Source: Bacillota bacterium
GTDB lineage: Bacteria; Bacillota; Negativicutes; CTSoil-072
Assembly (NCBI GenBank): GCA_017889545.1
Contig: JAGFZV010000001.1
Span: 1-64,000 of the forward strand
DNA length: 64,000 nt
Direction of reading: 5' to 3'
Shown here: positions 7,169-64,000 of the stretch, in pieces
Layout of the letters: every line of letters starts with the position of its first letter
Numbering within the stretch: position 1 is the stretch's first letter
Position numbers and translations under genes: made by a program
Notes under the pieces: model-generated
The model's database searches: none
The model's input: only the letters and a program-made list of their open reading frames with translations
What the model was told of the DNA's origin: nothing

Positions 7169-7182
7169 CATTTATTTCGTAT

Positions 7183-45493: not shown

Positions 45494-48400
45494 TTATACG
45501 AGGGAACCGAAAATATTGCCGATCCCATACTGTGTAACGCCTTGTTTGAAATGGCCCTGCGTGGTCGATCCTTCGTCCAGTTCGATGGTGAACGTGTAGG
45601 AACTGGAACCGAACAGGAAGCTGAAATCGCTGTAGTTCTGCAGATCCAGCGTGGAGCCGTTATAGGAAATCGTCGCGTTCGCTCCGTCAACCGCGATATT
45701 GAAGCCTGAGTTGTCCTGACCGGTGATGAAGGCGATCCAATCCCTGGTTCCGTCGCCATCCTCTTCGATCAGGTCGCTGCCCCAGGAAGAACCGAACAGG
45801 TATACATCATTCCCGGATCCGCCATTTAAGATGTCAAATCCGTCTCCGCCGGCAATAATATCGCCGCCGGCTCCTCCGATGATGGAGTCGTTGCCGCTGC
45901 CGCCAAACAGGATATCATTTTTCGTGCCGCCGTCAAGAATGTCGTTTCCGCTGCCGCCGTACAGCACATCCTGGTCTCCGCCGCCGGCAAGATTGTCATT
46001 GCCGCCCAAGCCGAACACCAAATCGGAGCCGTCCGTGCCGGCAAACGTATCATCGCCGGTTTTCATCGCCTGGAAGCCGCTGAAGGTCAACGTACCGCCG
46101 AACATCGAAGTTTCAAAGGTGCTGATCCTGTACCCGGCTTCATCGTTGTGGTAGTAATCCTGCAGGGTTACGCTGCCGTAATTGCCAAAGGTCATCAGGA
46201 GATCGTCGCCATCCTGTTCCATTGACAGCCCGCCGCCATTTGCCAAATCGCTCAGCATCCCCAGCGGATCGGCCGGAGTTTCGACAACCAGTTTGTCCTG
46301 ACTGTTCTGGTTGTCGCCGCCGATGACCAGATAGTTTCCTTGACCCGGTGTAAATACATAGGTATCGGCGCCCGCACCGCCAAAAAGCGTATCATAACCC
46401 CAAGCCGCAATTGGCTCTTCATCAATATCATAGCCGCCGCCTACCATGAGATCAGCGCCCTTTCCGCCCATCAGCAGGTCATGACCTGCGCCGCCGTATA
46501 GGGTATCGGCGTAGTCGCTGCCGGTGTGCGTATCATCGCCGTCCGTACCGTTGAAGAGTTGTCCGGTGAGCGCGGAAGGAACGGGATCATTGGATTCAAT
46601 CGCAACAAACGTATATTCATTGAGCGATCCGTTTTGCTGCAGGGCAAATACATGACCGGCATCGTCAATGAAGGTTTCCTGATAGTCATCGCCTTGGAAA
46701 TAGCCTTGCAGAGTCAGGCTGTCGCCATGCGATCCTGTGATGATGAGATCGTTGCCGGCCGTCGAGGTTCCCCTGGTCGCAATGAGGGTGCTGATATCCA
46801 GTCCTGCACCGGTAAACTGCACATAGTCATTATGATTGTCCGCGCTTTTAGTGACAACGGCAGCGCCATAGCCTGCGCCGAAAACATACAGATCGCTTCC
46901 CAGTCCGCCGGTCAGGGAATCTTTGCCTGTCAGAGCGCCGTTGCCGTCCAGAATATCGTCGCTGTCACCGCCGATGATGGTATCGCCATAATAGCTTCCG
47001 GTCACTTTTTCAATGCTGTTGTAAACCAGCGTTGCTGACGTCCCGACTTTTTTGCTGAGGCTGATGTTCACGCCGGCTGTCGATGAGGAGGCATCGAGCA
47101 CATCGGTTCCTTCGCCGGCGTTCACAAAACCATACGCATAGCCGGTCTTGAAAATCACCGTATCGCTGTCGGCGCCGCCAATGACTGTGTCTGCGCCGCC
47201 TTTCCCGTCAATTGTATTGTAGCCTTCGCCGGCGATGATGCTGTTGGCGCCGGTGGTGCCAGTCAGAGTATCGTCGCCGCTGCCGCTGATCAGATTTTCA
47301 ATGGAGGTGAACGGAGCCGCACTCAGATTGATCGCGACCGCATCGGTCGCCGCACTCGCATCCAGCCAGTCGCTGTTGTACCCGCCATCAAATTTGAAGG
47401 CATCCACATTGTAGGTCAACGTATCGTTGCCGGTTCCGCCGATCAGCGTATCCGCTCCGGTACCGCCATCCAACAGATCGTTGCCGGCATTGCCGTTCAA
47501 ATACTCATTGGCAGCCGTGCCGGTAATCACATCGTTTTTGGTTCCGCCGAAGAAGCCTTCGATGCTGTTGTAATTCGCCAAATCAACCGTCAAGCCCGTG
47601 GTCATGCTGCCGGCATTGATGAAGTCAAGGCCGTCGCCGCCATCAATGAAATCTTCTTCTCCGCCTTTGTAGACGATCGTATCATTGCCCGCCCCGCCCA
47701 GGATGGCCTCGCTGCCCAGCGTGCCGGTAATCAGGTCCTTGTTTTCCGTGCCAATGACGGTTTCAATGCCGGTGAATTTCGACGAGTTTAAATCGATGGT
47801 TGTTGTCCCGCTGACAACCCAGCCGCTTGCATCGACCGTATCGTCGCCTGCACCGCCGTCATACTTGGTCACGGTAGATGTATACACGAGGAGATCAGCG
47901 CCGTCATCGCCGTACAACTGGTCGGTGCCGCCGCCGCCGCTGATTGTGTCGTCGCCATCGCCGCCGCGCAGGACATTGGCCACGCTGTTGCCGGTAATCA
48001 TATTATCCAGGCTGTTGCCGGTAATGTTGACGCTGCCGGCTCCTGTCGCCACAAAATTCTCAATATGATCATAAGCCACAGTCAGGGAAACGCTGGTCCG
48101 GACAGTATCCGTGCCTGCATCGGCCTCTTCCACGACCAGACCGGTTGCATTATCGACAACGTATACATCGTTTCCTGCACCGCCGTATAAGGAATCCCGC
48201 CCGGTTCCCCCATCGACGGTGTCGTCGCCCGCCCCGCCGAAGATACTGTCATTTTCCGTCCCGCCGGACAGGTAATCCTGTCCATCGCTGCCGAACAGAA
48301 TATCATTGCCGGCTTCGCCGTACAGCACATCGTCCCCGGACTGCCCGGTCAAAATATCGTTTCCCGCGCCGCCAAAAATAGTTTCTGCCAGTGCGGTTCC

Positions 48401-48853
48401 GGTAACAGTGTCATCGTATTTCCCAAACCGGAATACTTCGATGTCCTGATAGTCATACTCGGCCAAATCAACATTGACAGCGCCCGGCCTTGCCGCAGAA
48501 TCAAGCGTATCCTGACCGTCGCCGCCATCAATGCTTTCCGTAGAACTGCCGTAGAGAATGAAATCGTTCCCGGCGCCGCCATCGATGATATTGGAGCCGA
48601 TCTTCCCCCACAACGTATCGTTGCCGCCGGCGCCGTTCAGTGTATCGTTTGCAGCGCCGCCGAAGATGCTGTCGGCCATGTCGCCGCCGGTAAAATCAGC
48701 AATCTCCGCCGTGCCAACGTTCATCTTCCATTTGCGGGATAAATCAGAAGCGATGTCTGCCGCATCAAAATACGCTAACGTATCATCCCCTAAAGTTGTC
48801 CCGTTCACATAGCCTGTTGAACTGGATGTCGGTCGATTTACAAGTACTGGCAT
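45494..48853 (-). CDS. RTX-type calcium-binding repeat protein, 1,119 residues
   Basis: This protein has about eight clusters of GGxGxDxLx repeats spread over residues 60-1050 and separated by beta-rich spacers of the kind in hemolysin-related domains (DLIITGSHGDSLTLQGYFQGDDYQETF). The C-terminal 90 residues repeat the spacer pattern and end NIFGSLV. No signal peptide and no enzyme domain are visible. RBS GGGGGAGA precedes the ATG. The 206-bp region upstream (48854-49059) is AT-rich and probably holds its promoter, though I saw no strong box pair. A large extracellular adhesive or matrix protein is the likely role. Confidence 0.87.
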   Translation of the reverse strand: MPVLVNRPTSSSTGYVNGTTLGDDTLAYFDAADIASDLSRKWKMNVGTAEIADFTGGDMADSIFGGAANDTLNGAGGNDTLWGKIGSNIIDGGAGNDFILYGSSTESIDGGDGQDTLDSAARPGAVNVDLAEYDYQDIEVFRFGKYDDTVTGTALAETIFGGAGNDILTGQSGDDVLYGEAGNDILFGSDGQDYLSGGTENDSIFGGAGDDTVDGGTGRDSLYGGAGNDVYVVDNATGLVVEEADAGTDTVRTSVSLTVAYDHIENFVATGAGSVNITGNSLDNMITGNSVANVLRGGDGDDTISGGGGTDQLYGDDGADLLVYTSTVTKYDGGAGDDTVDASGWVVSGTTTIDLNSSKFTGIETVIGTENKDLITGTLGSEAILGGAGNDTIVYKGGEEDFIDGGDGLDFINAGSMTTGLTVDLANYNSIEGFFGGTKNDVITGTAANEYLNGNAGNDLLDGGTGADTLIGGTGNDTLTYNVDAFKFDGGYNSDWLDASAATDAVAINLSAAPFTSIENLISGSGDDTLTGTTGANSIIAGEGYNTIDGKGGADTVIGGADSDTVIFKTGYAYGFVNAGEGTDVLDASSSTAGVNISLSKKVGTSATLVYNSIEKVTGSYYGDTIIGGDSDDILDGNGALTGKDSLTGGLGSDLYVFGAGYGAAVVTKSADNHNDYVQFTGAGLDISTLIATRGTSTAGNDLIITGSHGDSLTLQGYFQGDDYQETFIDDAGHVFALQQNGSLNEYTFVAIESNDPVPSALTGQLFNGTDGDDTHTGSDYADTLYGGAGHDLLMGGKGADLMVGGGYDIDEEPIAAWGYDTLFGGAGADTYVFTPGQGNYLVIGGDNQNSQDKLVVETPADPLGMLSDLANGGGLSMEQDGDDLLMTFGNYGSVTLQDYYHNDEAGYRISTFETSMFGGTLTFSGFQAMKTGDDTFAGTDGSDLVFGLGGNDNLAGGGDQDVLYGGSGNDILDGGTKNDILFGGSGNDSIIGGAGGDIIAGGDGFDILNGGSGNDVYLFGSSWGSDLIEEDGDGTRDWIAFITGQDNSGFNIAVDGANATISYNGSTLDLQNYSDFSFLFGSSSYTFTIELDEGSTTQGHFKQGVTQYGIGNIFGSLV

Positions 48854-49059: not shown

Positions 49060-51342
49060 TCAGCGGTTCTGCATTTCCGGCATCCGCTCCAGCAGCTGAC
49101 GAGTCAGTTCCGGCAAACGCCCAAGCATTGTCCGGTACCACTCAACCCGTTTTTCATAATGCTGCCACAGCATGCGGTTTTTCTTTACGTAGTCATATGC
49201 GCTGACCGCCATTTTTTGCCGCAATGCGGTGTCGGCAATCAGCCGGGACAGTTTTTCGGCAAATTGGCTTTCATTTTCATAGAGAAATCCGGTTGCACCG
49301 TCCGTCACCGAATCGGCATAGACCGTAGGGCTGGCCAGCACAACAGCGCCCCGGGCCGCGCACTGGATGAATTTCAAATCGGACTTGCAGCGGTTGAAGC
49401 GATTATTAAGCAACGGCAGCAGGGCAATATCGACCGTGCTGAGAATATGCAAAAATTGCTCATAAGGGCACAGCGGGACAAATTGTTTATTGGTACACTG
49501 CAGCCGGTCAAAAAACAATTTATCGTATACAACGACGACTTTTACCCGATCCTGATGCTGGGCAAGCACGCGGTTCAAGGCCGGCATCACCGGTTCCCAG
49601 TCTTTTTCGCGGTTAAACGCGCCAAAAAAAATGGTAACGGGTTGGTCGTGCGAAAAACGGCGCAAGGGCGGCAGGGAGGCGATCTGGTTGGGAAACACAC
49701 CGACATTGGGGTTGAGTTCCCGCAAAATATTGGCCAGATATTCGGTGGAGGTTTGCACGCAATGCGCACTGCGAAAGGTGACAAACTGATTTTCCGCATG
49801 GTCCGGCCAAAACAATGGGTCGTCGTCAATTTCCGCCACGATCAAATAACCGCGGCGCAGCAATTCTTTTTGTTTCGCCAAATCCTCCGGATATTTCAGG
49901 CGCTGGCGCTGCCAGATAAATACCTTGTCTTCCCCGGGCCGGGCGATATTCAATTCCGCAGTCCCCACGGCGGAAACGGTCCGGACGCCGGGAATGGTGC
50001 TGATCATTTGGTCCGGTTCATATACGCGGATCACATCGGAACACATCCGCGACAACAGCATGGTCTGCACCAGCAGCGGGCGTGGCACAGGGTCGTTCAG
50101 CATTTCGGCCAGGGCATTCTTCACTTGTTCGACTGTGACTTGCTGAATGCAATGGGCTTTTGTCTGGCTGCACATCTCCGTGCACGGCGGCAAGGGTCTT
50201 TCCGGCTGCAGGATCAAATGGGGAATGTTCCAGGGACCAAACCGCAGCGGACTTAAAAAATGGTCCGGGTCGCCCTGGCGCGGATGGCAGGAAATTTCAA
50301 CGACCGGCCGGCCGGCAGCCGCCGCCAGATGCATAACACCGGTGTCACGGCCCAGATATGCATCGCAGTTTGCCAAAAGAGCCGCCGTCTGCCGGAGGGT
50401 CGTGCGACCGCAAAAATCGATCACAGCACCGGGCAGCAGACTGGCCAGCCGCTGTCCGCCAGCTCGTTCCTCCGGACTCCCCAGGAGCAGCATCCGTGCG
50501 CCATACTTTTGCGCCAGCCAGCGGCCGATTTGCACATACCGATCGACGGGCCAGCAGCGTTTCCCATCCTCAGGCCCGAGCGATATGGCAATTTTTCGCC
50601 CGGGATACGGCAATAACGCCTGCCGGGCGAATTGTTCATCCTCGTTGTCCGGCCACACTTCCAGCTGTTCGTCATTTACTGCAATCCCAAGATGGCGCAG
50701 AACAGCCAAATTGCGCTCCGCTTCGTGTTTCACAGAACCGCCCGGCACGCTGTGCGTGAGCAGTTGATCATATCCGGCATTGTATTTTCTTTTTACGGCG
50801 GTAGCCTGCTCTGAATAGCCCACCCGCAAGGCGGCCCCGCTCAGATACGACAATAACGTGCTTCCATACCGGTCATAGTCATAACGGGGATTGATGCACA
50901 GATCGTACTGCTGCCGCCAAAGATGGCGGCGGCACAATTCCAGCAGAGGCGCGAGGCCGGACACGACGACATTGCTCTCACGGCGGCCCGGCACATCGCA
51001 AAAAAGCACCTCATCCACATAGGGGCATGTTTGAACCAGATTGTAGACCTTGCGGCTAACCACCAACGTGATGAAGGCCTGCGGGCAGCCCTTGCGCAAT
51101 TCGCGCAGCAGCGGACTGGTCAGCACCGTATCGCCGATCTCATCCAGCCTCAGAATCAAAATGTTTTTGATCGCCCTTGGGTCAGCAATGCTGCGTGGCT
51201 TCCGAAACCCGTACTTTTCAAAAAACGGCTCCAGCGCCGCCCGGATTGCCGGAATGGCAAGACCTCCATCCCGTTCTAATTTTCGCAGCGCCGTGGTCAT
51301 CCCGGCAAAAAGCTGTTCCCCGTCAACTACATCCTCTATCAT
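49060..51342 (-). CDS. Two-domain glycosyltransferase (GT9 plus GT4/GT1-like)
   Basis: A 760-residue fusion. Residues 60-400 resemble heptosyltransferases (GT9): NILILRLDEIGDTVLTSPLL, SLGPEDGKRCWPVDRYVQIG and YLGRDTGVMHLAAAAGRPVVEI. Residues 410-740 resemble a GT-B enzyme: VTIFFGAFNREKDWEPVMPAL, then the donor-site region LKFIQCAARGAVVLASPTVYADSV and GATGFLYENESQFAEKLSRLI. The N-terminal 55 residues are helical. It is flanked on both sides by RTX genes on the same strand and likely glycosylates them or a surface glycan (inference). A GT9 enzyme without other lipopolysaccharide-core genes nearby favours protein modification. Confidence 0.82.
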   Translation of the reverse strand: MIEDVVDGEQLFAGMTTALRKLERDGGLAIPAIRAALEPFFEKYGFRKPRSIADPRAIKNILILRLDEIGDTVLTSPLLRELRKGCPQAFITLVVSRKVYNLVQTCPYVDEVLFCDVPGRRESNVVVSGLAPLLELCRRHLWRQQYDLCINPRYDYDRYGSTLLSYLSGAALRVGYSEQATAVKRKYNAGYDQLLTHSVPGGSVKHEAERNLAVLRHLGIAVNDEQLEVWPDNEDEQFARQALLPYPGRKIAISLGPEDGKRCWPVDRYVQIGRWLAQKYGARMLLLGSPEERAGGQRLASLLPGAVIDFCGRTTLRQTAALLANCDAYLGRDTGVMHLAAAAGRPVVEISCHPRQGDPDHFLSPLRFGPWNIPHLILQPERPLPPCTEMCSQTKAHCIQQVTVEQVKNALAEMLNDPVPRPLLVQTMLLSRMCSDVIRVYEPDQMISTIPGVRTVSAVGTAELNIARPGEDKVFIWQRQRLKYPEDLAKQKELLRRGYLIVAEIDDDPLFWPDHAENQFVTFRSAHCVQTSTEYLANILRELNPNVGVFPNQIASLPPLRRFSHDQPVTIFFGAFNREKDWEPVMPALNRVLAQHQDRVKVVVVYDKLFFDRLQCTNKQFVPLCPYEQFLHILSTVDIALLPLLNNRFNRCKSDLKFIQCAARGAVVLASPTVYADSVTDGATGFLYENESQFAEKLSRLIADTALRQKMAVSAYDYVKKNRMLWQHYEKRVEWYRTMLGRLPELTRQLLERMPEMQNR

Positions 51343-51441: not shown

Positions 51442-51471
51442 AAAAAAGGGGCCGGCGCTACTGCGCCAGCC
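51442..51471 (-). terminator. Terminator of the adhesin/RTX transcript
   Basis: GGCCGGCGC pairs with GCGCCAGCC around a TACT loop with one mismatch, followed on the minus strand by CCCTTTTTT. It lies 28 bp beyond the stop of the RTX gene. Confidence 0.75.
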
Positions 51472-51498: not shown

Positions 51499-54400
51499 TT
51501 AAACCAGTGTCCAGCCATTCGTTTGGTCGTAGTAGTAAGTGGCCCCCGTGCCTGAATTATCGCCGCTCACAAACAGCTGCGGAAGCAGTATGCCTTCCGG
51601 GGTTACGCAGTTGAGCACCGTGACGGAACCGATTTGATAGTTGGCGCCATTCTGGCTCATGACCAAATCTTGAAATTCGATCCCGCCCTCAAAGCGGATC
51701 ATATCATTGGCATACCATTGCGGATCGTCAGAAATAAAATCCTTGCCGTCGCCCAGCCGGAAGGAATAACTATCGTTGCCTTCGCCGCCGGTCAGCGTGT
51801 CATTTCCGCTTCCGCCATCCAACAGATCATTGCCGCTCTGCCCATACAGCGAGTCATTGCCGCCTTTTCCGGACAAGCTATCGTTGCCGGCGCCGCCGTC
51901 GAGCAGGTTTCGCAGGGCATTGCCGCTGAGCGTATCGTCATAGCTGCTGCCCATCAGGTTTTCCAGATCATTGGCCGTATATTTCAAAAGGTCAATCGCG
52001 GCCGCTGCTGCCGCACTGCCGGCGTCGAGTACGTCATTGCCCGACCCGCCTTTGACATTCCCTGCGGGATCGGCGGCATCATAGATCAGAGTATCGTTCC
52101 CCAACCCGCCCAGCAAGGTGTCGCTGCCGCCGTTTCCGGCCAGCAGGTCATTGCCGCTTCCGCCGTCCAGATAATCATTCCCTGCCGTTCCGTTCAATGT
52201 ATCGCTTCCGCCGCCGCCGAGGACCCGCTCGAGTCCGGCAAACATTGCCGCACTCAGATCGATTGCCGCCGCATCATTGCCCTGCACCAGCAGAATATCT
52301 GTCCCGTCGCCGCCGTCCAGCAACCCGTCCGCCGCATCATAAATCAGCGTATCATTGCCCAAACCGCCGTATAGCGCATCACTGCCCAGACCGCCGTACA
52401 GCCGGTCATTGTCATTGCCGCCGTACAGGCTGTCGCTGCCGGCGCCGCCGGTCAGCGTGTCCGCCCCCCGGTTGCCAAACAGAGTGCTTCCGCCGGCATT
52501 TCCGCTGATCTTATCCGCTCCGCTGCTGCCGCCGGCGGCTTCGATGCCGAAATAGGCCGCTTTATTCAGGTCAATCGTTACCGCCGCAGTCCCGGAGGCC
52601 TGCAAAATATCAAATCCTGCCCCGCCATCAACCAGCCCGTCAGCAGCATCGTAGATAAGAGTATCCTCGCCGTCGCCGCCGTAGAGGCTGTCTTTTCCCG
52701 CTCCTCCGTCAAGACGATCGCTGCCGCCGAAGCCGGTCAACACATCATTGCCGGAATTCCCTGCCAGTACATTGTCTTCATTATTGCCGGTTAACGTGTC
52801 CGCCCCGCTGCCGCCATATATTCCTTCAAAATCGGCATACATCTCCAAAGACAGATTTTTCCCCGCCGTTTGCGCCGCGGCGCTGAGAAGGTCAAATCCG
52901 TCTCCACCGCCTAAACTGTCGCCAAGCCCGTAGACCAGGGTATCGTTGCCCGCACCGCCGTCCAGAACGTCATTGCCCACACCGCCGTCCAGGAAATCAC
53001 TGCCGTTTCCACCCAGGAGTATATCATTCCCGCCGGAGCCGGATAATTTATCATTGCCGCCGAGTCCCAGCAAGCGGTCGCCCGCGGCTGTCCCGGTCAG
53101 CGTATCATTGCCTTCCGTGCCGGAGAAGAATTTGTAGACCGGTCCGCCGGTGCCGAATTGGTACTGGGTAATTCTGTTGCCTGCGGCGTTTTTCCAGCCT
53201 TCCACCGTAATCGCGCCTTCTTGCCCGACAACGCTGATCTGCATGTCATTGCCCTGCGCGGTAAAGCCGATATCGTCCGGAAGAATGCCTTCGCCAAACC
53301 GGATGATATCGGCTGAGTTAGCCGCGTCCGCTTTAATGGTATCGCTTCCATCGCCAAACACATAGGTGTCATTGCCGCCTTTTCCCGCCAGGAGATCATT
53401 GCCGGACCCGCCGTCCAGCAAGTTTCGCAGGGAGTTGCCGGTCAGCGTATCATCATAACTGCTGCCGGCCAGGTTTTCCAGATCATTGGCCGTATATTTC
53501 AAAAGATCCATAGCGACCGCTGTTGCCGCACTGCCGGCGTCGAGTACGTCATTGCCCGACCCGCCTTTGACATTCCCTGCGGGATCGGCGGCATCATAGA
53601 TCAGCGTATCGTTGCCGGCTCCACCCAGCAAGGTGTCGCTGGCGGCACTTCCGTCCAGCAGATCATTGCCGCTTCCGCCGTCCAGATAGTCGTTCCCCGC
53701 CGTGCCGGTTAGCGTATCGCTCCCGCCGCCGCCGATGACCCGTTCGAGTCCGGCAAACAGGTCCGTACCCAGATGGATTGCTGCCGCATCATTGCCCTGC
53801 ACCAGCAAAAAATCGGTTCCGTCTCCGCCGTCAATCAAGGTGTCCGCCGCATCATAAATCAGCGTATCATTGCCCAACCCGCCCAGCAGCGCATCCATTC
53901 CCAAACCGCCGTACAGCCGGTCATTGTCATTGCCGCCGTACAGGCTGTCGCTGCCCGCGCCGCCGGTCAGTGTGTCCGCCCCCCGGTTGCCAAACAGAGT
54001 GCTTCCACTGGCATTTCCGGTGATTTTATCCGCTCCGCTGCTACCGCCGGCGGCTTCTATGCCGGTATAGATTGTCTTGCTCAGATCCATCGTCACCGCC
54101 GCAGTCCCGGAGGCCTGCAAAATATCAAACCCCGTACCGCCATCAACCATCCCGTCGGCAAGATCATAGACCAGAGTATCATCGCCGTCGCCGCCGTAAA
54201 GACTGTCACTGCCGCTCCCGCCATCCAGCACATCATTGCCGGCCTGGCCGTCCAGCAGGTCGTTCCCGCCATTACCGCGCAGTTCATTGTCTGTCTCTTC
54301 GCCGGTCAATGTGTCTCTGCTGCTGCTGCCATAAATAGTTTCAAGCCCGGCAAACCGGCTGTCGCGCAGATCAATTGCAACTGCCGCCGTACCCTGTACC

Positions 54401-55191
54401 AGCAGGACGTCCGTTCCTTCCCCGCCGTCAAGCCAGCCGTCTGCCGCATCATAAACCAGTGTATCGTTTCCGGCCTCGCCAAAAAGGCTGTCGCTGCCGG
54501 CTCCTCCGTCCAAACGGTCATTGTCATTCCCGCCGTATAAGGTGTCGCTGCCGGTTCCGCCGTTCAGCGTGTCCGCTCCGGCATACCCAAATAACCCGTC
54601 GTTTCCTACTTTTCCCGTCAGACTGTCATTCCCGGCGCCGCCGTACAGAAAAAGATCGGCAACGCTTTCCAAATAAACGCTCCTGGATTTATAAGTACTG
54701 ATGATCCCGTTCATTTCCGCAGTCGAAAAACCCACTTCCTCCCAGGAATAATCAAATACCAGCCCTTGCGACAGGGCTTCCTGGAACATCGTGTAGAGTT
54801 CGGTATAACTGTACGTCCCTTCGGCCAGGACGAAGGTCTCAATCCGGTTGGCCGTCTGCCTCCAGTCAAAGATGATGATGCTCAGGTTGCTGGCCTCGTC
54901 CGCCACCACTAGATGACGGTTGTCAATGCTCGCAAAAAACGAACTGTACAGACTAATTCCCGGAGCAATGACCGTGTCATTGGCGGAGTTTCCCGTTTCT
55001 TCGATCATCATCCCGTTGTTGCTTCCGGCCAGATACGTGTCATTCCCCTGTCCGCCCAAAAACATCACGGCTTCTTGATATTCCGCCGCTGCAAACAAGG
55101 TGTCATTTCCCTGCAGGCCAAAAGCAGCCGTTCCTTGCGGAACTGAAATATTGTCATCCAGCGACGTGCCTACCAGTTCGTCTAACGCCAT
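51499..55191 (-). CDS. RTX-type calcium-binding repeat protein, 1,230 residues
   Basis: The largest of the three repeat proteins. Residues 1-180 are not repetitive (LVGTSLDDNISVPQGTAAF, then a beta/alpha region). RTX blocks then alternate with FAGLE- and YTGIEAAG-type spacers. A block of about 260 residues occurs twice, 505 residues (1,515 bp) apart: about 54190-53390 and 52680-51880, with stretches identical at DNA level. No signal peptide. I chose the ATG at 55191 with GGGGGTGG five bases away; a GTG at 55200 overlaps that site. It begins 30 bp after the TPS adhesin ends, so it is probably co-transcribed under the c-di-GMP riboswitch. Confidence 0.87.
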   Translation of the reverse strand: MALDELVGTSLDDNISVPQGTAAFGLQGNDTLFAAAEYQEAVMFLGGQGNDTYLAGSNNGMMIEETGNSANDTVIAPGISLYSSFFASIDNRHLVVADEASNLSIIIFDWRQTANRIETFVLAEGTYSYTELYTMFQEALSQGLVFDYSWEEVGFSTAEMNGIISTYKSRSVYLESVADLFLYGGAGNDSLTGKVGNDGLFGYAGADTLNGGTGSDTLYGGNDNDRLDGGAGSDSLFGEAGNDTLVYDAADGWLDGGEGTDVLLVQGTAAVAIDLRDSRFAGLETIYGSSSRDTLTGEETDNELRGNGGNDLLDGQAGNDVLDGGSGSDSLYGGDGDDTLVYDLADGMVDGGTGFDILQASGTAAVTMDLSKTIYTGIEAAGGSSGADKITGNASGSTLFGNRGADTLTGGAGSDSLYGGNDNDRLYGGLGMDALLGGLGNDTLIYDAADTLIDGGDGTDFLLVQGNDAAAIHLGTDLFAGLERVIGGGGSDTLTGTAGNDYLDGGSGNDLLDGSAASDTLLGGAGNDTLIYDAADPAGNVKGGSGNDVLDAGSAATAVAMDLLKYTANDLENLAGSSYDDTLTGNSLRNLLDGGSGNDLLAGKGGNDTYVFGDGSDTIKADAANSADIIRFGEGILPDDIGFTAQGNDMQISVVGQEGAITVEGWKNAAGNRITQYQFGTGGPVYKFFSGTEGNDTLTGTAAGDRLLGLGGNDKLSGSGGNDILLGGNGSDFLDGGVGNDVLDGGAGNDTLVYGLGDSLGGGDGFDLLSAAAQTAGKNLSLEMYADFEGIYGGSGADTLTGNNEDNVLAGNSGNDVLTGFGGSDRLDGGAGKDSLYGGDGEDTLIYDAADGLVDGGAGFDILQASGTAAVTIDLNKAAYFGIEAAGGSSGADKISGNAGGSTLFGNRGADTLTGGAGSDSLYGGNDNDRLYGGLGSDALYGGLGNDTLIYDAADGLLDGGDGTDILLVQGNDAAAIDLSAAMFAGLERVLGGGGSDTLNGTAGNDYLDGGSGNDLLAGNGGSDTLLGGLGNDTLIYDAADPAGNVKGGSGNDVLDAGSAAAAAAIDLLKYTANDLENLMGSSYDDTLSGNALRNLLDGGAGNDSLSGKGGNDSLYGQSGNDLLDGGSGNDTLTGGEGNDSYSFRLGDGKDFISDDPQWYANDMIRFEGGIEFQDLVMSQNGANYQIGSVTVLNCVTPEGILLPQLFVSGDNSGTGATYYYDQTNGWTLV

Positions 55192-55221
55192 ACTGTCCAC
55201 CCCCTTATGTTTTTCATTCTA

Positions 55222-58200
55222 TCATAGATCTTCCGGCAGCCAATCGTCTTCATCCGTATTTTGGCTGCCTATGGCCGCCTGGATCGCCGGCAAGGCAAAG
55301 AATGGCTGCACCAACGGCTGAAGGAAGCTGGACGCTTTATTCAGCGAACTGCTTCTGGTCACAATATCCGCGATGGTGAACGCGAATGTATTTTGCAGGG
55401 TATAGTTGCCGGCAGCGGTTCCACTGAGACGAATGTCCGTAACGCTGACCGGTTTGTCATCGCCAGGATTGGGATCACTGAAGGCCGCTGTTCCGGTCAC
55501 TGTGAGATTGTCGCCATTGATCCGGTTATCGTTATAAATGACCGAAGCGAAAGTTGTTCCGTCATAACTCTTGTTTTTGCCCACCGCAGTGACAGAGATC
55601 GGGCGGGGCGTGATCGTCAGTATGCCGTTGGCATAGCTAATGCTGTAATTGGCTGCGCTGCCGCGCTGCAGGGTGACGGCGCTTGGCGTCAGACTGTAGG
55701 CGCCCACACTGCTCGTGACGGCAGCCGGGCTGACCAGGTTCGCATTGCCGAGAGCATCGGTGCCCACCAGGCTGCCGGAAACCACATTGACTGGACCGTT
55801 TGCCGGGTTGGCATCGCCATACACCCGACTGGCATTCGCGGTGACGGTGATCGGCCTCGGCGTGATCGAGAGCGTTCCGTCCGCGTAAGTAATCGTATAA
55901 TTGTCCGCCCTGCCGTGGATAAACGTGATGCCGCTTGGTGTCAGACTGTAACTGCCCACATTGCTCGCAGCGGTAGCCGGGCTGCTCAAGGCAGCAACGC
56001 TGCCGAGAGTATCTGTTCCGGCCAGGCTGCCGGAAGTCAAACTGACCGTACCGCTGGCCGGATTGGCATTGCCATACACCCGGCTGGTATTGTTCGCTGT
56101 GACAGTGAGCGGCCGCGGTGTGATCGAGAGCGTTCCGTCCGCGTAAGTAATCGTATAATTGGCTGCACTGCCGCTGGCAAAGGTGACGCCGCTCGGCGTC
56201 AGGCTGTAGCTGCCCACATTGCTCGCAGCGGTAGCCAAGCTGTTCAAGGAAGCATTGCCCAGAGCGTCGGCACCCGCCAGGCTGCCGTTAATCACGCTGA
56301 CTACGCCGCTGGCCGGGTTGGCATTGCCGTATACCCGGCTGGCATTGGCCGTGATCGTGATCGGCCGCGGGGTAATCGAGAGTGTGCCGTTCGCGTAAGT
56401 AATCGTATAATTGGCTGCGCTGCCGCGGGTAAAGGTGACGCCGCTTGGCGTCAGGCTGTAGTCGCCTACGCTGCTCGCAGCAGCAGCCGGGCTGCTCAAG
56501 GCAGCATTGCCGAGTGTATCCGTCCCCACCAGGCTGCCGGATGTCAGACTGACTGGACCGTTTGCCGGGTTGGCATCGCCATACACCCGGCTGGCATTGT
56601 TTGCCGTAACGGCAATCGGCCGCGGTGTGATCGTCAGCGTGCTGTCCGCGTACGTAATCGCATAGTTTGCTGCACTGCCGCTGGTAAAGCTGACGCCATC
56701 CGGTGTCAGTTTGTAAGTGCCGACGCTGCTTGCGGCGACAGCCGGAGTACTCAAGCCGGCAGTACTGCCCAGAGCATCCGTTCCGGCCAGACTGCCGGCA
56801 GTTACATTGACAACCCCGCTGGTGGGATTGGCATCGCCGTATACCCGGCTGGCGTTGTTCGTTTTGACGGTGATCGGCCGTGGCGTGATCGAGAGCGTTC
56901 CGTCCGCGTAAGTAATCGTATAATTCGCTGCACTGCCGCTGGCAAAGGCGACGCCGCTCGGCGTCAGGCTGTAGCCGCCCACATTGCTCGCAGCGGTAGC
57001 CGGGCTGTTCAAGGAAGCATTGCCCAGAGCGTCCGTCCCCGCCAGGCTGCCGGACGCCACCGTGACCGCGCCGCTGGCCGGGTTGGCATTGCCGTATAAC
57101 CGGCTGGCATTGGCCGTGATCGTGATCGGCCGCGGGGTAATCGAGAGCGTGCCGTTCGCGTACGTAATCGTATAATTGGCTGCGCTGCCGCGGGTAAAGG
57201 TGACGCCGCTTGGCGTCAGGCTGTAGTCGCCCACGCTGCTCGCAGCGCCAGCCGGGCTGCTCAAGGCAGCATTGCCGAGGGTGTCCGTCCCCACCAGGCT
57301 GCCGGATGTCAGACTGACCGCGCCGCTGGCCGGATTGGCATTGCCATACACCCGGCTGGCATTGTTTGCCGTAACGGCGATCGGCCGCGGTGTGATCGTC
57401 AGCGTGCTGTCCGCGTAAGTAATCGCATAGTTTGCTGCACTGCCGCTGGTAAAGCTAACGCCATCCGGTGTCAGCTTGTAATTGCCGACGCTGCTTGTGG
57501 CGGCAGCCGGAGTAGTCAAGCCGGCGGTACTGCCCAGAGCATCCGTTCCGGCCAGGCTTCCGGCAGTCACATTGATCACCCCGCTGGTCGGGTTGGCGTC
57601 GCCGTATACCCGGCTGGCGTTGTTCGTTTTGACAGTGATCGGCCGCGGCGTGACCGTCAGCGTTCCGTTCGCGTACGTAATCGTATAATTTGCGGCGCTG
57701 CCGCTGGCAAAGGTGACGCCGCTCGGCGTCAGGCTGTAGCCGCCCACATTGCTCGCAGCGGTCGCCGGACTGCTCAAGGCAGCGCTGCTGAGCGCATCCG
57801 TGCCGGCCAGACTTCCGGACGTCACCGTGACCGGACCGCTGGCCGGGTTGGCATTTCCGTATACCCGGCTGGCATTGGCCGTAATGGTGATCGGCCGCGG
57901 GATAATCGAGAGCGTGCCGTTCGCATACGCAATGTCATATCCTTGCTGGCCGGAATACAGGCCGCTGGGGACAATCGTATACTCACCGGCATTTTTGGCC
58001 GCCTGCGCCGTGCCGCCATAAGCAAGCGTCCCGAAAAGCGAACCCGTTGGAGTGGCGGAATAAGACACCCCTGCATTTCCGGCATAACCGGTTGTCCCAT
58101 TATAGGTTCGGCTAAAATCATTGGCCGTCACGGTCAGAGGCGTCAAAAAAGACTTGAGCAGCGGATAGGTATACCCGCCGTATATCCGCCAGGTATTGCC

Positions 58201-60204
58201 AAAATCCCAGCCGCTGAAATTGCTTTGGTTCATCATCCCGGCTGTTGTTAATCCAGTGCCCCCGTCGCTGACCGTTTGGCCGGACGTGGTCTTATTCCAG
58301 AAGCTGCTGCTGACGCTGCCGCTGTTTGCTCCGACCAGGCCGCCGACATCCGAGCTGCCGCTGCCGCTGGTCACGGCGCCCGCGCTATAGCTATTGCTGA
58401 TACTGCCGCCCGGCAAGCCGTCATCGTTGCCGTTATGTCCGACCAATCCGCCGACATATTGGCTGTCGCTGCTTCCGCTTACCGTACTTGTGCTGTAGCT
58501 GTTGCTGATACTGCCGTAGGTATTGCCGCCAATCAGGCCGCCGACATGATTGGTTCCGCTCACCGTTCCGCTGCTGTAGCAGTTGCTGATGCTGCTATGG
58601 ACATGGTTATCTCCAACCAACCCGCCAACGTACTGGTACCCGGTAACTGAAGCGCTGCTGTAACTGTTGCTGATGCTGCCATAATTCAGTCCAACCAAAG
58701 CGCCGGTGTACATATTGCCGCTCACAGACATATTAACAAGTCCCACATTCTTGACCGTACCGGTTAATTCGCCAAACAAGCCCACATAGCCTTGACTTGG
58801 CCGATGAATATACAGATTGCTGATCGTATGGCCATCCCCATTGAATTTTCCGGAAAATTTACCACTGCTGCCAATCGGCGCAAAACCTGCGCCGCTATTC
58901 CAAGCGGCGGAAGCACCGGCATCGATGTCTTTTCCCAGCGCATAAGCGCCGGCCAGGTTGGTGTTCATCGCTTGCAGCTGGTTCACATTATTCACCAGCA
59001 TGTAAGCCGTCAACGTCCCGCCTGTTACTTTGCCGGCATAATCGGCAGGCGACGTATACGCGACAGGGTTGTAGTAGATCTCCGCTGCCCCGCTGCCGCT
59101 CAAGGCGACCGAGCCGCTTTCCTGAAAATTTACCGTTCCGGCGCCGGTTCCGTTATGATCGGCCCGCAGGATGATATTCGCATTGGTTCCGGCCGACAGG
59201 TTATTGCTGATTGTAAGATCGCCAACCGCGCTCACTTTCACTGTTCCGCCCGTCGTACCGGATGCATCGATATTTGTGGTCGAATCGAGCTGGACATTGC
59301 CGCCCCGCAGCGTAATTGACCCGCCGTTCTCATAGTCATCCAGCCCTGCGGCGGACAATGCTCCAGTATTGACAACAATCCCTTGATCACCGCCGTCCAG
59401 ACGAATGACTCCATTCACCGTACTGATGCTGTTGGCCCGAATGGTTCCGCTGTTATTGATTACCGTACCGGCCAATTCATCAGCAGTGCGTGCCGTCATC
59501 AGAATTCTGCCGCCGTCCGCCTTGAGCAGGTTATTGTTGGTTATTTGCGCATTGACCGTTGCCTGGCTGACCGCCAGATTGATCAGTCCGTCTCCCGCCA
59601 TATCCAATGTGACCGCATTTCCGGCTCCGAGGGCGATCGTGCCTGATTTGACTACAATCGTTCCCTGGTTGACAATCTGCCCGCCGAGCAGGGCTACGTA
59701 ACCCCCGTCGGCGGCCTTAATGTTGCCCTGGTTGATGACGGAGCCACCGGCGCCGGAAAACGTATATGTTCCGGCCGTAAAATCACTGTCGCTGATATTC
59801 AGCGTGGAAGCTGCCAGAGCGCCTACATTGACTTGAGCGGTAGGCGCGAATAAAATTCCTTGCGGGTTAATCAAAAAAACCTTGCCGTTGGCAGTCAGCT
59901 GCCCGTAAATAGCGGAAGGTTCACTGCCAATTACCCGGTTAAGCGCAATGGAGGAGAAGCCCGGTTGAACAAAAACCACCGTTTCGCCGGAACCGATGCT
60001 GAAGGTCTGCCAATTTATGCCGAGTTTATTGCTGGTTTGGCTAATCGTCGTTGTATCGCCGCTTTTTGTAATCGTTCCGGATCCGGTCGTTACCGCGCCA
60101 TTGGACGGAGCGGCAAAACCGCTTGGCATGAACATCGCCAGAAACAGGAGCGCACTGAAAAAGGCCAATACTTTTCTTGATAATTCGCGGCCCTCGCTAG
60201 CCAT
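55222..60204 (-). CDS. TPS-type filamentous adhesin with GLUG and MBG repeats
   Basis: A 1,660-residue secreted protein. The signal peptide (FFSALLFLAMFMPSGFAA) ends near residue 32. Residues 33-290 form the filamentous-hemagglutinin TPS domain, with LINPQGILF at 111-119 (NPxGI motif). Residues 470-680 hold GLUG motifs (VGGLVG..GSISNSYS). About 690-1540 contain one diverged and nine clear MBG repeats of 84-86 residues, each ending TITPRP or a variant, then a YDG-type repeat (GKNKSYDGTTF). The C-terminus ends WLPEDL. No TpsB transporter gene is in the window. The start at 60204 has GGAGGAG. Its leader carries a cyclic-di-GMP riboswitch. Confidence 0.9.
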   Translation of the reverse strand: MASEGRELSRKVLAFFSALLFLAMFMPSGFAAPSNGAVTTGSGTITKSGDTTTISQTSNKLGINWQTFSIGSGETVVFVQPGFSSIALNRVIGSEPSAIYGQLTANGKVFLINPQGILFAPTAQVNVGALAASTLNISDSDFTAGTYTFSGAGGSVINQGNIKAADGGYVALLGGQIVNQGTIVVKSGTIALGAGNAVTLDMAGDGLINLAVSQATVNAQITNNNLLKADGGRILMTARTADELAGTVINNSGTIRANSISTVNGVIRLDGGDQGIVVNTGALSAAGLDDYENGGSITLRGGNVQLDSTTNIDASGTTGGTVKVSAVGDLTISNNLSAGTNANIILRADHNGTGAGTVNFQESGSVALSGSGAAEIYYNPVAYTSPADYAGKVTGGTLTAYMLVNNVNQLQAMNTNLAGAYALGKDIDAGASAAWNSGAGFAPIGSSGKFSGKFNGDGHTISNLYIHRPSQGYVGLFGELTGTVKNVGLVNMSVSGNMYTGALVGLNYGSISNSYSSASVTGYQYVGGLVGDNHVHSSISNCYSSGTVSGTNHVGGLIGGNTYGSISNSYSTSTVSGSSDSQYVGGLVGHNGNDDGLPGGSISNSYSAGAVTSGSGSSDVGGLVGANSGSVSSSFWNKTTSGQTVSDGGTGLTTAGMMNQSNFSGWDFGNTWRIYGGYTYPLLKSFLTPLTVTANDFSRTYNGTTGYAGNAGVSYSATPTGSLFGTLAYGGTAQAAKNAGEYTIVPSGLYSGQQGYDIAYANGTLSIIPRPITITANASRVYGNANPASGPVTVTSGSLAGTDALSSAALSSPATAASNVGGYSLTPSGVTFASGSAANYTITYANGTLTVTPRPITVKTNNASRVYGDANPTSGVINVTAGSLAGTDALGSTAGLTTPAAATSSVGNYKLTPDGVSFTSGSAANYAITYADSTLTITPRPIAVTANNASRVYGNANPASGAVSLTSGSLVGTDTLGNAALSSPAGAASSVGDYSLTPSGVTFTRGSAANYTITYANGTLSITPRPITITANASRLYGNANPASGAVTVASGSLAGTDALGNASLNSPATAASNVGGYSLTPSGVAFASGSAANYTITYADGTLSITPRPITVKTNNASRVYGDANPTSGVVNVTAGSLAGTDALGSTAGLSTPAVAASSVGTYKLTPDGVSFTSGSAANYAITYADSTLTITPRPIAVTANNASRVYGDANPANGPVSLTSGSLVGTDTLGNAALSSPAAAASSVGDYSLTPSGVTFTRGSAANYTITYANGTLSITPRPITITANASRVYGNANPASGVVSVINGSLAGADALGNASLNSLATAASNVGSYSLTPSGVTFASGSAANYTITYADGTLSITPRPLTVTANNTSRVYGNANPASGTVSLTSGSLAGTDTLGSVAALSSPATAASNVGSYSLTPSGITFIHGRADNYTITYADGTLSITPRPITVTANASRVYGDANPANGPVNVVSGSLVGTDALGNANLVSPAAVTSSVGAYSLTPSAVTLQRGSAANYSISYANGILTITPRPISVTAVGKNKSYDGTTFASVIYNDNRINGDNLTVTGTAAFSDPNPGDDKPVSVTDIRLSGTAAGNYTLQNTFAFTIADIVTRSSSLNKASSFLQPLVQPFFALPAIQAAIGSQNTDEDDWLPEDL

Positions 60205-60240
60205 TTTGTCTCCTCCTTTTCGCTTCTGAAGAAAACGAAA

Positions 60241-60350
60241 ACTGCCGGGAACCATCCGGATAAATCCGAAGCGGCCCGGCAGTCATTAGCCCAGCATTTG
60301 GGCTTTTAGACCCGCGGCTTTGCGTCCTTGCTTTTCGGCAAGTTTGCCAA
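60241..60350 (-). ncRNA. Cyclic-di-GMP-I (GEMM-I) riboswitch with terminator
   Basis: On the minus strand the leader reads GGCAAAC (from 60348), a CTTGC-CGAAAA-GCAAG hairpin with a GAAA-type loop, the hallmark GGACGCAAAGCC (60315-60326), GGGTCTAA, a second hairpin AGCCC/GGGCT, then AATGACTGCCGGG. This is the order of the GEMM-I aptamer. The segment ACTGCCGGG (60275-60283) is also the 5' arm of a perfect 9-bp terminator with CCCGGCAGT (60241-60249), followed by TTTCGTTTTC. The aptamer and terminator therefore share bases. Ligand binding should hide the arm and allow read-through, an ON switch (inference). The start codon lies 37 bp beyond. Confidence 0.85.
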
Positions 60351-60387
60351 TTCTGCATTCTTCCATTGTAGAAGACACTCATGAAGT

Positions 60388-60416
60388 AATTTACATTTTC
60401 GACATCTATTAGTCAA
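60388..60416 (-). promoter_or_regulatory. Promoter of riboswitch-adhesin transcript
   Basis: On the minus strand TTGACT (60411-60416), 17 bp, TAAATT (60388-60393), placing the start near 60381, about 30 bases ahead of the aptamer. Confidence 0.55.
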
Positions 60417-60484
60417 TTCCTGCCTGAATTCATGCTTCTTTAAGAGAATTGTGAATTTTCGCAATACGTGGCCGTAGGCTGCGG

Positions 60485-61699
60485 CTACTTTCGCAGCAGC
60501 CCCTTGAGAATCTCCATCTGCCGCGGCAGGCAATTCTTGATGGCGTAGCGGTCCAAAATCGTCTGCCGGGCGTTTTTGCGCAAACGTTCCATGGCAGCGC
60601 GATTGTCCAGCGCTTCGCAGACCCGGTCCGCAATTTTTTCCGGTGAAAAGAAATCGACCAGCAGGCCGTTTTCGCCGTCGCGGATGACTTCCCGCACCGG
60701 CTGGGTATCAGACGCCACCAGCAGGCAGCCGGCGGACATTGCTTCGAGCATCGACCAGGAAAGGACAAACGGGCGGGTAAGGTATACATGAACGGAGGAC
60801 GCCTGCAAAACCTGGCGGTAACGGTGAAAAGGAAGCAAGCCGGTGAAATGCAGCCGCGACATATCGGGCTGCAATTTCTGCAGCATGAGATCCTTGTAGG
60901 ACTGGCCTTCCGGCAGCTGCCGCCCATAAGCGACCCGATCGGCGCCAACAACGACAATCTGGCATTTGGGACGCCGCGCCATGACCAGCGCCATCGCTTC
61001 CATGAATTGCGGGAAACCGCGGTACGGCTCCATGCCGCGCGCGACATACGTTACAATTTCATCCATCCCCGTCAGATCAATGCCCTGTTCGGGCAGCACT
61101 AAGGCCGATCCGGGCTGCGGCTGCAGATAATCGGTATCAATCCCGTCATGAATGACGTCGATTTTCGGTTGAAACTCAGGCGGGAACTGGCGGTGCTGCC
61201 ACTGCGTCGGCGAAATGCCGCGGTCGCAGCTGTACAAATCAATTAGGATCGGCGCATTCTTCAGGCGAATACGGGCTTCGTCATCCGGCGTCAGCGGCTG
61301 GGAAGGATCAAAGTCGGCATCGGTACCGTGCGCATGATAAAACCATTCAAAAAAACAGACGAGCGGCGCGCGGGGAAAAATGTCTTTGATCAGCATCGTC
61401 GGTCCCCAGCCGGAATGGCCGTAAACAATATCCGGAACAAACCCCTGCTCCTTGAGCTGGGTTCCCATTCGGTACACGGCCTGCGCCTGAATCACAGCCC
61501 CTTCGAGCGGCTTGATATAGCTGTGCGTGTCCGGTTTGGGCTCACGGTGGTTGGTATACATCACTTTAAACACGTTGGCCAGACTGCCTTCCTGCCGCTG
61601 CGTGCCGAACACGACGCGGTTGGCGGGATCAGCCGCCAACATGCTGGCCAGGCGGACAAACTGGGCGGGAAAATTGGGATGCAAAAACAAAATTTTCAT
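60485..61699 (-). CDS. GT4-family glycosyltransferase
   Basis: A 404-residue GT-B enzyme. The start KILFLHPNFPAQFVRLASMLA and an N-terminal domain of the Glyco_trans_4 type (VIQAQAVYRMGTQLKEQGFVPDIVYGHSGWGPTMLIKDIF) are followed by a C-terminal donor domain with VTYVARGMEPYRGFPQFMEAM, VVGADRVAYG, and the E-x7-E type region FVLSWSMLEAMSAGCLLVASDTQPVREVI. The gene overlaps the GT41-like gene by ATGA (61696-61699). It lies just upstream of the riboswitch and adhesin and may extend glycans started by its neighbour (inference). Confidence 0.87.
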   Translation of the reverse strand: MKILFLHPNFPAQFVRLASMLAADPANRVVFGTQRQEGSLANVFKVMYTNHREPKPDTHSYIKPLEGAVIQAQAVYRMGTQLKEQGFVPDIVYGHSGWGPTMLIKDIFPRAPLVCFFEWFYHAHGTDADFDPSQPLTPDDEARIRLKNAPILIDLYSCDRGISPTQWQHRQFPPEFQPKIDVIHDGIDTDYLQPQPGSALVLPEQGIDLTGMDEIVTYVARGMEPYRGFPQFMEAMALVMARRPKCQIVVVGADRVAYGRQLPEGQSYKDLMLQKLQPDMSRLHFTGLLPFHRYRQVLQASSVHVYLTRPFVLSWSMLEAMSAGCLLVASDTQPVREVIRDGENGLLVDFFSPEKIADRVCEALDNRAAMERLRKNARQTILDRYAIKNCLPRQMEILKGLLRK

Positions 61700-64000
61700 A
61701 GCGCACCTCGCTCTATGCGTTCATTCCACATCCGGAGCAACGCTTCTTCATACGCCGGCTGGGCGGCGGAACCATTAAACAATGTTTCGCGGACATGGGC
61801 CTTGATATGGGTGTGGAGACGTTGACGCAACATGGCATCTTCAGCCAGCGTTACCGCCCAATCGACATATTCCTGTTCGCTGGCGGCGATCCCCTCGGTA
61901 ACGCCCAGCGCCCGCAGCAAATACGCACCCCAGCGGCTGCGTGCCATATCGCCTTCCTGCGTGATGATGGGCAGACCCATAAACAGCGCTTCCATATTCG
62001 TGGTCCAGCCGCCATAGGGGTAGGTGTCCAATTGAACGTCGGACAGTGCCAAAAGCCCCATCAGATCGCTCGCCTGCCGCAGCGGGGGCAGAATGATCAG
62101 CCGGTCGGCAACCTTGGCCTGCCGGGCCGCGGTAAGCAAGCGGTCGGTCAGTTGATGATGAATGCTGGGCGGGTTCATATAGGGTTTCAAAACAATCCAG
62201 GCCTGCGGCGCGCGCTGCAGGATTTGGACCAGCAAACGGTCCCGCTGCGGCGCATGCTTAATTCCGTTGGCGCAGGAAACGAAAACTACTGCCTCCTCCG
62301 GCAGGTTGAAGTCGCGCCGATTTGGCATCTGCTGCGGCATCAACGGCGGATATTGCGCCGCACCAAGATTCGGCAAGCGGATCAGTTTTTCCCGGTAATG
62401 GCTGTCGCCGTCCGGCGGCTCATGGTCGCCGCTGACATAGTAATCAATCGTCGGCAAGCCGGAGGTGATCCCGTGGCCGACCAAGACAGCCTGCACCGGT
62501 GCGAGCCGGAAGGCGGCCAGCATATACGTGACCGGATCCATGCCCAGGTCGGCATATACGAGAATATCCAAGTCCTGCTCCCGGATCGTTTGCGCAATGC
62601 TTTGGATATCCTGAAGATTTTTCATCTGAATAAACTGATCGCAATTCCGGCGGAATAATTCGGTCATATCGTCCTGCCGTTCACCCAGGGCAAAAACAGT
62701 GACCGCAAATTTTTCCCGGTCGTGATGCAAAATGCGGTTGACCATATAGTAACTGACAGCCTGGCTGGCAAAGTTGCGGGAAACATAGCCCACCCGGAGT
62801 TTTCCGTCCGCCCGGCCCGGCCGCCGTTTCGGCGTCTCTTTGACCCCGGGATACAAGCGGTGCATATTGAAAACCAGGAAGTCACCAAGCGCATTCAACG
62901 CTTCCAGGTTGTTGCCGCCCACATAGGTGGAGCGCCAAAATGCAGTCATCGCTTCTTCAATGAATGCATTGAAAAAAGCCGGCGTCATCAGGCGTTTTTG
63001 CTTGACTGCCTCTCCGCACAGATCCAGGGCGTATTTCAGCAGCTTTTGCCGGTGTTCTTCGCGGGCGTTGAAATACGGCAGGTTGAGCATCCAGAAAATA
63101 ATGATCGCTTTGCAAAAAACGGGGATATATTTTGAACTCCACAATTTTCCGGCGTCAAGAGCAATCCGGTCAGCCGAAAACGGGGCATAGAGGGATGTGA
63201 GCAAGAGACGCGGATACCAGTTATTGTCATTTGAAGTCAATAGCTTGGCTGCCAGATCCTGTTCTTCGGCCGGAATGGTCAAACGCAGATTGAGAGCCGA
63301 AAAGACGTTCAAAAAAACTTGACGCCAGAGGCTGACCAGCAGCCACTGCTGTTTATCGTTGATTTGTTTTAGGGCGGTTACCGGCGTTTGGCTGAAATAG
63401 TCATGCAGTTTGCTGCGCAAGGTAAGACAGATGCGCAGCAGCGCCGCTTCCTGCACGGGATGAAGTCCCCCGCAGCGCGGCGGCAGTCGGCGGGCAGCGA
63501 ACCATTGCCCGGCAAATTCCCAAAGCAAAGAACTCTGCGTCATGGAATCGATAGACCGCAAGCAATAATCAAAATACAAATCCGTAAACAAGGCCCGATC
63601 GGCTGTTTTTTGTTTTTCAAACCCTTCGTACCGGGTCCGGAATTCCTGAATGACCTGTTTCCAGGAGACTGTTCGCGCCTTGTCGACTGTTGCAGGGATC
63701 TGAAACTTCGCTTCCAGTTCGGCAAAGTTTACCGGGTTCCTGGTTTCGCGCCGGGCAGACAAGTCCTGCGACAGCAGCGGCTGAGCTGCGGGAAGTTTTG
63801 GCTGTGGCCGGACCGGTTTTTTCCCCGATAACAATTCCTTGTAGAGTGCCAGGTACTCATCAGTCATGCGGCGCGCCGTGAATCGATCCATAACAGACTG
63901 CCGGGCGGCTTCACCGACAATTTGACTCCGCCCCGGATCGTTCAGGAACAGAGCCAAGCCAGCAGCCAAATCCTCGCTGTCGCGCATCCGGGCCAGATAG
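61696..64000 (-). CDS. GT4-GT41 (SPINDLY-like) glycosyltransferase fusion, partial
   Basis: At least 768 residues; the frame is open to the right edge, so the 5' end is missing. The first 55 visible residues (GLALFLNDPGRSQIVGEAARQSVMDRFTARRMTDEYLALYKEL) look like the end of a GT4 domain. A helical middle follows. The C-terminal half is a GT41/SPINDLY-type O-GlcNAc-transferase-like domain: LRVGYVSRNF, VLVGHGITSGLPTIDYYVSGD, VVFVSCANGIKHAPQRD and LDTYPYGGWTTNMEALFMGLPIIT. GT41 enzymes add sugars to protein side chains in the cytoplasm, including the HMW1C enzymes that glycosylate TPS adhesins. The nearby adhesin and RTX proteins are the likely targets (inference). Confidence 0.87.
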   Translation of the reverse strand, partial: YLARMRDSEDLAAGLALFLNDPGRSQIVGEAARQSVMDRFTARRMTDEYLALYKELLSGKKPVRPQPKLPAAQPLLSQDLSARRETRNPVNFAELEAKFQIPATVDKARTVSWKQVIQEFRTRYEGFEKQKTADRALFTDLYFDYCLRSIDSMTQSSLLWEFAGQWFAARRLPPRCGGLHPVQEAALLRICLTLRSKLHDYFSQTPVTALKQINDKQQWLLVSLWRQVFLNVFSALNLRLTIPAEEQDLAAKLLTSNDNNWYPRLLLTSLYAPFSADRIALDAGKLWSSKYIPVFCKAIIIFWMLNLPYFNAREEHRQKLLKYALDLCGEAVKQKRLMTPAFFNAFIEEAMTAFWRSTYVGGNNLEALNALGDFLVFNMHRLYPGVKETPKRRPGRADGKLRVGYVSRNFASQAVSYYMVNRILHHDREKFAVTVFALGERQDDMTELFRRNCDQFIQMKNLQDIQSIAQTIREQDLDILVYADLGMDPVTYMLAAFRLAPVQAVLVGHGITSGLPTIDYYVSGDHEPPDGDSHYREKLIRLPNLGAAQYPPLMPQQMPNRRDFNLPEEAVVFVSCANGIKHAPQRDRLLVQILQRAPQAWIVLKPYMNPPSIHHQLTDRLLTAARQAKVADRLIILPPLRQASDLMGLLALSDVQLDTYPYGGWTTNMEALFMGLPIITQEGDMARSRWGAYLLRALGVTEGIAASEQEYVDWAVTLAEDAMLRQRLHTHIKAHVRETLFNGSAAQPAYEEALLRMWNERIERGAL

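Follow-up and report, generated by a model that had tools for sequence, protein, structure and literature searches.

In the window, as we call the whole 64,000-nt stretch of DNA that was analysed, a c-di-GMP-I riboswitch precedes the gene of a very large two-partner secretion (TPS) adhesin. Its aptamer family and binding-pocket letters are clear, aptamer and terminator pair in mutually exclusive ways, and similar elements elsewhere in the genome make up a paralogous regulon. We consider it very probable that this is a transcriptional ON switch for the adhesin, and probably for the RTX gene behind it, sharing its mode of regulation with an unlinked tpsB-tpsA operon.

When all of the window was scanned with cmscan against Rfam 15, the sole hit was RF01051 (c-di-GMP-I, or GEMM-I), at 60358..60267 on the minus strand; no other family matched, and the c-di-GMP-II riboswitch was likewise without a match there. 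The alignment covers the full model (positions 1-87 of 87) and scores 67.6 bits (E 4.2e-11) where the gathering threshold is 35, in agreement with the first-pass annotation, which had recognized the GEMM-I hallmark between characteristic hairpins and named the Rfam search as a check. The hallmark GGACGCAAAGCC and both flanking hairpins are present in the leader. Rfam positions 11, 38 and 83 are G, A and C, and positions 12 and 37 form a G-C pair. We take these to be the counterparts of Vc2 G20, A47, C92 and G21-C46, a correspondence worked out in part from a published account of the junctions J1/2, J2/3 and J1/3 (PMC6274999). G11, A38, C83 and the G12-C37 pair thus mark the window copy as of c-di-GMP type rather than cGAMP type, which would have A at Vc2 position 20, the selectivity position; the RNA of the window copy is expected to bind c-di-GMP. 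Two irregularities are a weak P1 of about 3 bp and a C-A mismatch adjoining the tetraloop of P2.

Directly behind the aptamer is an intrinsic terminator hairpin, GACUGCCGGGCC..GGUUCCCGGCAGUU (60284..60240, minus strand; in full GACUGCCGGGCCGCUUCGGAUUUAUCCGGAUGGUUCCCGGCAGUU), assigned from its fold energy, its register and the covariation of its helix. It folds at -27.8 kcal/mol (z -5.06), a value reached by 0 of 200 shuffles, and is followed by the U-tract UUUUCGUUUUC. Its 5' arm, GACUGCCGGG, starts at -17 counted from the end of the aptamer and doubles as the 3' strand of helix P3; aptamer and terminator therefore exclude one another. Earlier this had been called a perfect terminator with a shared arm; the shared arm and the strong hairpin stand, and 'perfect' is slightly generous because a CG interrupts the U-tract. 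Counting against the switch, as do this interruption and the weak P1, the minimum-free-energy (MFE) fold of the free leader pairs UUGGCA with UGCCGA inside the aptamer and does not form P2. The terminator state of the free leader is favoured by 9.5 kcal/mol over the aptamer-forced fold (rows L018, L022 and L062 are left out of the table of aptamer-forced energies), a gap that tight ligand binding could pay. An IUPAC pattern for the whole terminator, too strict in its spacing, had 0 matches with up to 3 mismatches allowed.

Both alternative folds are supported by covariation in a MAFFT alignment of 29 shared-arm leaders from this genome, its relatives and Sporomusa malonica. In the aptamer helices 97.3% of cells are paired, with 44 double-sided changes against 12.8 in shuffles. 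The terminator helix is paired in 96.2% of cells, a percentage biased upward because the set was picked for shared arms, and has 10 double-sided changes against 1.9 in shuffles; slid versions of the same helix pair in 15-50%. The columns shared by the two folds provide the strongest evidence. At column 84, where most leaders have A, the window uniquely has G, and C replaces U in its aptamer partner and in its terminator partner; at column 85 three sequences have A, with U in both partners. A single letter is thus kept complementary to two alternative partners.

At low c-di-GMP, the strand GACUGCCGGG would quit P3 and build the strong terminator, and transcription would halt ahead of the adhesin ATG. 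At high c-di-GMP, the ligand would lock P2/P3 and hold this strand in the aptamer; with the terminator blocked, RNA polymerase would enter the TPS adhesin gene and probably continue into the RTX gene. The unlinked tpsB-tpsA operon would be governed by the same type of switch, so that production of the adhesins would be coordinated with that of their likely transporter.

Known c-di-GMP-I aptamers serve ON as well as OFF platforms (PMC9262584). In the pilM riboswitch of G. metallireducens, as in the window, an aptamer strand is the terminator arm, the folds are mutually exclusive, and ligand activates transcription, although the ligand there is cGAMP and the targets are pilus genes (PMC9262584). 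Bc2 of B. thuringiensis, also of the c-di-GMP-I family, is an experimentally proven ON switch for the collagen adhesin gene cap and resembles the window in having an intrinsic terminator just before the ORF of a surface adhesin (PMC4933901). It differs in its selectivity nucleotide (A11 in Bc2, G11 in the window) and in its target, a cell-wall-anchored collagen adhesin of a monoderm rather than a TPS exoprotein of a diderm Firmicute. Since the window shares the mutually exclusive geometry of these proven ON switches, c-di-GMP should activate the adhesin, a direction that we infer on good grounds. The shared-arm ON logic proposed at first reading is supported by covariation with both partners, by the like arrangement of 12 of the 25 copies in the genome, and by these precedents.

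The opposite direction is exemplified by Cd1 of C. difficile, which has the same aptamer family and also acts by transcription termination; there the terminator is compatible with the bound aptamer, the two coexist, and the result is an OFF switch (PMC9262584). For c-di-GMP to promote termination in the window, through some unrecognised antiterminator, is very improbable: OFF needs bound aptamer and terminator together, the window terminator uses up the P3 strand, and covariation backs both alternatives on the same columns, even though the family includes both platforms (PMC9262584) and roughly half of the genome's copies have a terminator that does not overlap the aptamer. The P2 mismatch and the competing hairpin of the MFE fold could be signs of a decayed or chance aptamer-like sequence in front of a terminator that works alone as an ordinary attenuator. 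We give this reading little credence in view of the Rfam score, the retention of every pocket nucleotide, and the compensated change in both alternative helices.

The identity of the ligand turns on the selectivity nucleotide (Vc2 G20), which is A in five genome copies (L007, L016, L021, L024, L025) and C in one (L018); all six are among the 12 shared-arm copies, against 0 of the 13 others. This change is associated with cGAMP sensing, and in another genome it improved c-AMP-GMP binding (PMC9481103). The A and C copies may have different thresholds or a different ligand. For the window copy to sense 3',3'-cGAMP, as a GEMM-Ib aptamer, is nonetheless very unlikely, as it has G where GEMM-Ib has A, and Bc2 with A at this position still responds to c-di-GMP (PMC4933901). 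Furthermore, the genome encodes 19 GGDEF domains; the canonical Asp is retained in every one, with a GHxxGD-type motif, and none has the Asp change expected for Hypr enzymes; nothing therefore points to a Hypr-type cGAMP synthase, and Hypr/cGAMP signalling as the cause of the A and C variants was set aside as unsupported. c-di-GMP remains the expected ligand of the proposed ON switch.

The switched gene begins at ATG 60204, behind the ribosome-binding site AGGAGG (60212..60217, minus strand), and runs to a stop at 55222 (55222..60204, minus strand). Its 1660-aa product is a TpsA-type exoprotein with a TPS secretion domain (PF05860) at residues 32-282 (123.4 bits, 1.9e-35), followed in the Pfam results by PF18676 (2.3e-112), PF18657 (3.9e-32) and PF07581 (3e-16), and is annotated with GLUG, 10 MBG_2 and YDG domains. 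This domain, together with the Rfam match and the pocket nucleotides, confirms the initial reading of a c-di-GMP-I riboswitch before a TPS adhesin. The RTX gene of 1,230 residues that had been placed 30 bp behind the adhesin is indeed there, on the same strand with its ATG at 55191 (51499..55191, minus strand), and encodes 24 HemolysinCabind stretches (PF00353, 1.9e-105), which are glycine-rich nonapeptide repeats. A terminator, previously put at 51442, follows it as a 9-bp hairpin with CCTTTTTT (51471-51450, minus strand).

The 30-bp gap, with no terminator found between the two genes, fits an adhesin-RTX operon, which we consider likely; a promoter-like site before the RTX gene counts against it. 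This site, TTGGCT-16-TAGAAT with TG before the -10 (55216..55243, minus strand; a consensus match only), is of the extended -10 kind and ends 25 bp before the RTX start. It raises the alternative that the switch acts on the adhesin alone, the RTX gene being separately regulated from its own promoter. Such sites number about 0.65 per kb on each strand, so that the chance of one in 60 bp is about 4%, and the second TpsA gene of the genome has no RTX gene behind it; set against this are the common strand, the short uninterrupted gap, the position of the terminator after the RTX gene only, and the frequency with which consensus promoter matches arise by chance. Separate regulation is thus a rather unlikely alternative, though one to be reckoned with. 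The original proposal of one switch for two surface proteins is accordingly supported for the adhesin and plausible for the RTX protein.

RF01051 is abundant in this genome (3.27 Mb in 50 contigs): there are 25 copies, all above the curated threshold, and the window copy ranks 14th among them by score. This number is unmatched in the 39 other genomes searched alongside, where the highest counts are 17 and 16. In 12, the window copy and 11 others, the 5' arm of the terminator starts at -17 in the same register, and in the rest the terminator is mostly clear of the aptamer, with a few ambiguous cases. Targets of the shared-arm switches are the window adhesin, tpsB-tpsA, a YadA-type trimeric adhesin, PglD-like O-acyltransferases, a GlgC-type nucleotidyl transferase, an FAD oxidoreductase, DUF202, secreted proteins, and an AsmA/DUF748-like protein that scores below Pfam's cut-off. 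The other copies precede a flagellar operon (recognised from sequence), chemoreceptors, GGDEF proteins, capsule or exopolysaccharide genes, and others. Flagellar, chemoreceptor or GGDEF targets account for 6 of 13 separate-platform loci versus 0 of 12 shared-arm loci (hypergeometric p ~0.01, calculated by hand). A rule by which a shared arm means adhesion and a separate terminator motility was rejected, since outside this genome shared-arm leaders of relatives also precede chemoreceptor-like genes, as judged from sequence.

Some shared-arm leaders have upstream sequence in common as well. The window has AAAATTCACAATTCTC (60444..60459, minus strand), one mismatch from the motif RAAATTCANAATNRTC, which is found in five other shared-arm leaders; half of the shared-arm set (window, L015, L016, L021, L023, L025) has it, some 85-100 bp ahead of the aptamer. 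With at most one mismatch, RAAATTCANAATNRTC has 25 matches genome-wide versus 5 for a reversed control pattern, and 6 of the 25 fall within 200 bp before shared-arm riboswitches. Several of these leaders also contain GCAGGAATTGAC, and the two motifs together suggest either duplication of a promoter-riboswitch cassette or a shared site for an activator. Nearer to the aptamer is a promoter-like TTGACT-17-TAAATT (60388..60416, minus strand), a consensus match only, such sites being near chance frequency (13 found in 10 kb against 6.0 expected, sd 2.7). Between its -35-like and -10-like hexamers is TGTCGAA, with a similar ATGTCGAAA before L022; to our eye the heptamer looks like a Spo0A box.

The genome encodes two TPS exoproteins only. 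A full ShlB/POTRA_2 transporter gene (tpsB) occurs once, on contig C31 and unlinked to the window, the second ShlB match being a 24-bit partial; there tpsB is followed by the gene of the second exoprotein, in an operon headed by a shared-arm RF01051 leader. No tpsB is found beside the window adhesin, which is thus an orphan exoprotein; a cognate TpsB in the same operon is typical, not strictly required. Over 1131 aa the two exoproteins share 61% identity, so that a common transporter is plausible, and the window adhesin presumably uses the unlinked TpsB. As the window adhesin has no adjacent tpsB, the predicted control spans unlinked loci that hold both adhesins and the likely transporter.

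Shared-arm RF01051 leaders are also found before tpsB in S. malonica (L062) and in two other genomes (G011, L310; G036, L311), all Negativicutes, while most tpsB/tpsA loci of the class have none. The link between riboswitch and TPS is recurrent, not universal. A conserved direct link with tpsA was rejected, the conserved link being with tpsB: in the 1.5 kb examined ahead of the match, RF01051 occurs at 0 of 29 tpsA loci of other Negativicutes. Another riboswitch, RF01055 (molybdenum/tungsten cofactor), was observed near TPS loci of Sporomusa, other Negativicutes and a Geobacter MAG (L058 4715-4838, L059 4715-4838, L061 5386-5508, L095 from the MAG 7178-7296, L313 1074-1197, L315 1167-1289, L357 3398-3518). 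In L313 and L315 some 300 nt separate it from the tpsB downstream, a position that c-di-GMP-I occupies in other genomes; within the literature collection searched, no paper joined 'Moco riboswitch' with 'two-partner secretion'.

The mechanism is an established one: Bc2-cap is a known c-di-GMP-I ON switch for an adhesin, and CdrA, through FleQ, a known TPS adhesin under c-di-GMP control. In P. aeruginosa, c-di-GMP raises the TPS adhesin CdrA and its transporter CdrB, as we predict here, but through the DNA-binding protein FleQ and a single cdrA-cdrB operon instead of riboswitches at two unlinked loci (PMC2847200). Titles and abstracts on c-di-GMP, riboswitches and two-partner secretion, in a search outside which most subscription journals lay, described no such switch on a TPS system. 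The window switch would tie the second messenger of sessile life directly to a very large TPS adhesin of a diderm Firmicute without a DNA-binding protein, and a switch of this type at another locus would govern the likely TPS transporter. With 25 copies, one cell offers a natural series that varies in aptamer pocket, terminator strength and target function and that could help to test how a change of lifestyle is ordered by riboswitch thresholds.

A broader proposal, which we put forward only tentatively and hold to be somewhat doubtful, is that a promoter-riboswitch-terminator cassette was duplicated to give a 'sessility regulon' of 12 paralogous ON switches that share one register, with G/A/C variation and terminator strength setting thresholds or a second ligand. 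If true, two TPS adhesins, the sole clear transporter, a YadA-type adhesin and sugar-modifying enzymes would be under c-di-GMP at unlinked loci, each target with its own c-di-GMP threshold, or a second ligand, according to its selectivity nucleotide and terminator strength.

We finally note some peculiar arrangements: (i) On contig C8 a tandem pair, L025 (16076-15984) and L018 (15504-15412), is of ON-ON type and precedes a PglD-like acyltransferase. (ii) On C23 the separate-terminator L013 (297003) is followed by the shared-arm L023 (297356) before DUF202; a short ORF alone lies between them and resembles the start of the small-protein genes of L001 and L008. (iii) RTX-repeat proteins are directly behind c-di-GMP-I riboswitches at L232 (G005), L263 (G015, a tandem pair) and L019 (own genome, C23:135701); the terminators of L232 and L263 do not overlap the aptamer, and these two may therefore switch in the opposite direction. 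(iv) Upstream of the window switch are genes for a GT4 glycosyltransferase (60485-61699) and a GT41-type glycosyltransferase (61696-63999), whose Pfam family includes HMW1C-like adhesin glycosyltransferases; both are candidates for glycosylation of the adhesin. (v) The surface-protein cluster goes on beyond the RTX gene, on the same strand, with a two-domain glycosyltransferase (49060-51342) and two more RTX-repeat genes (45494-48853 and 43000-45393).
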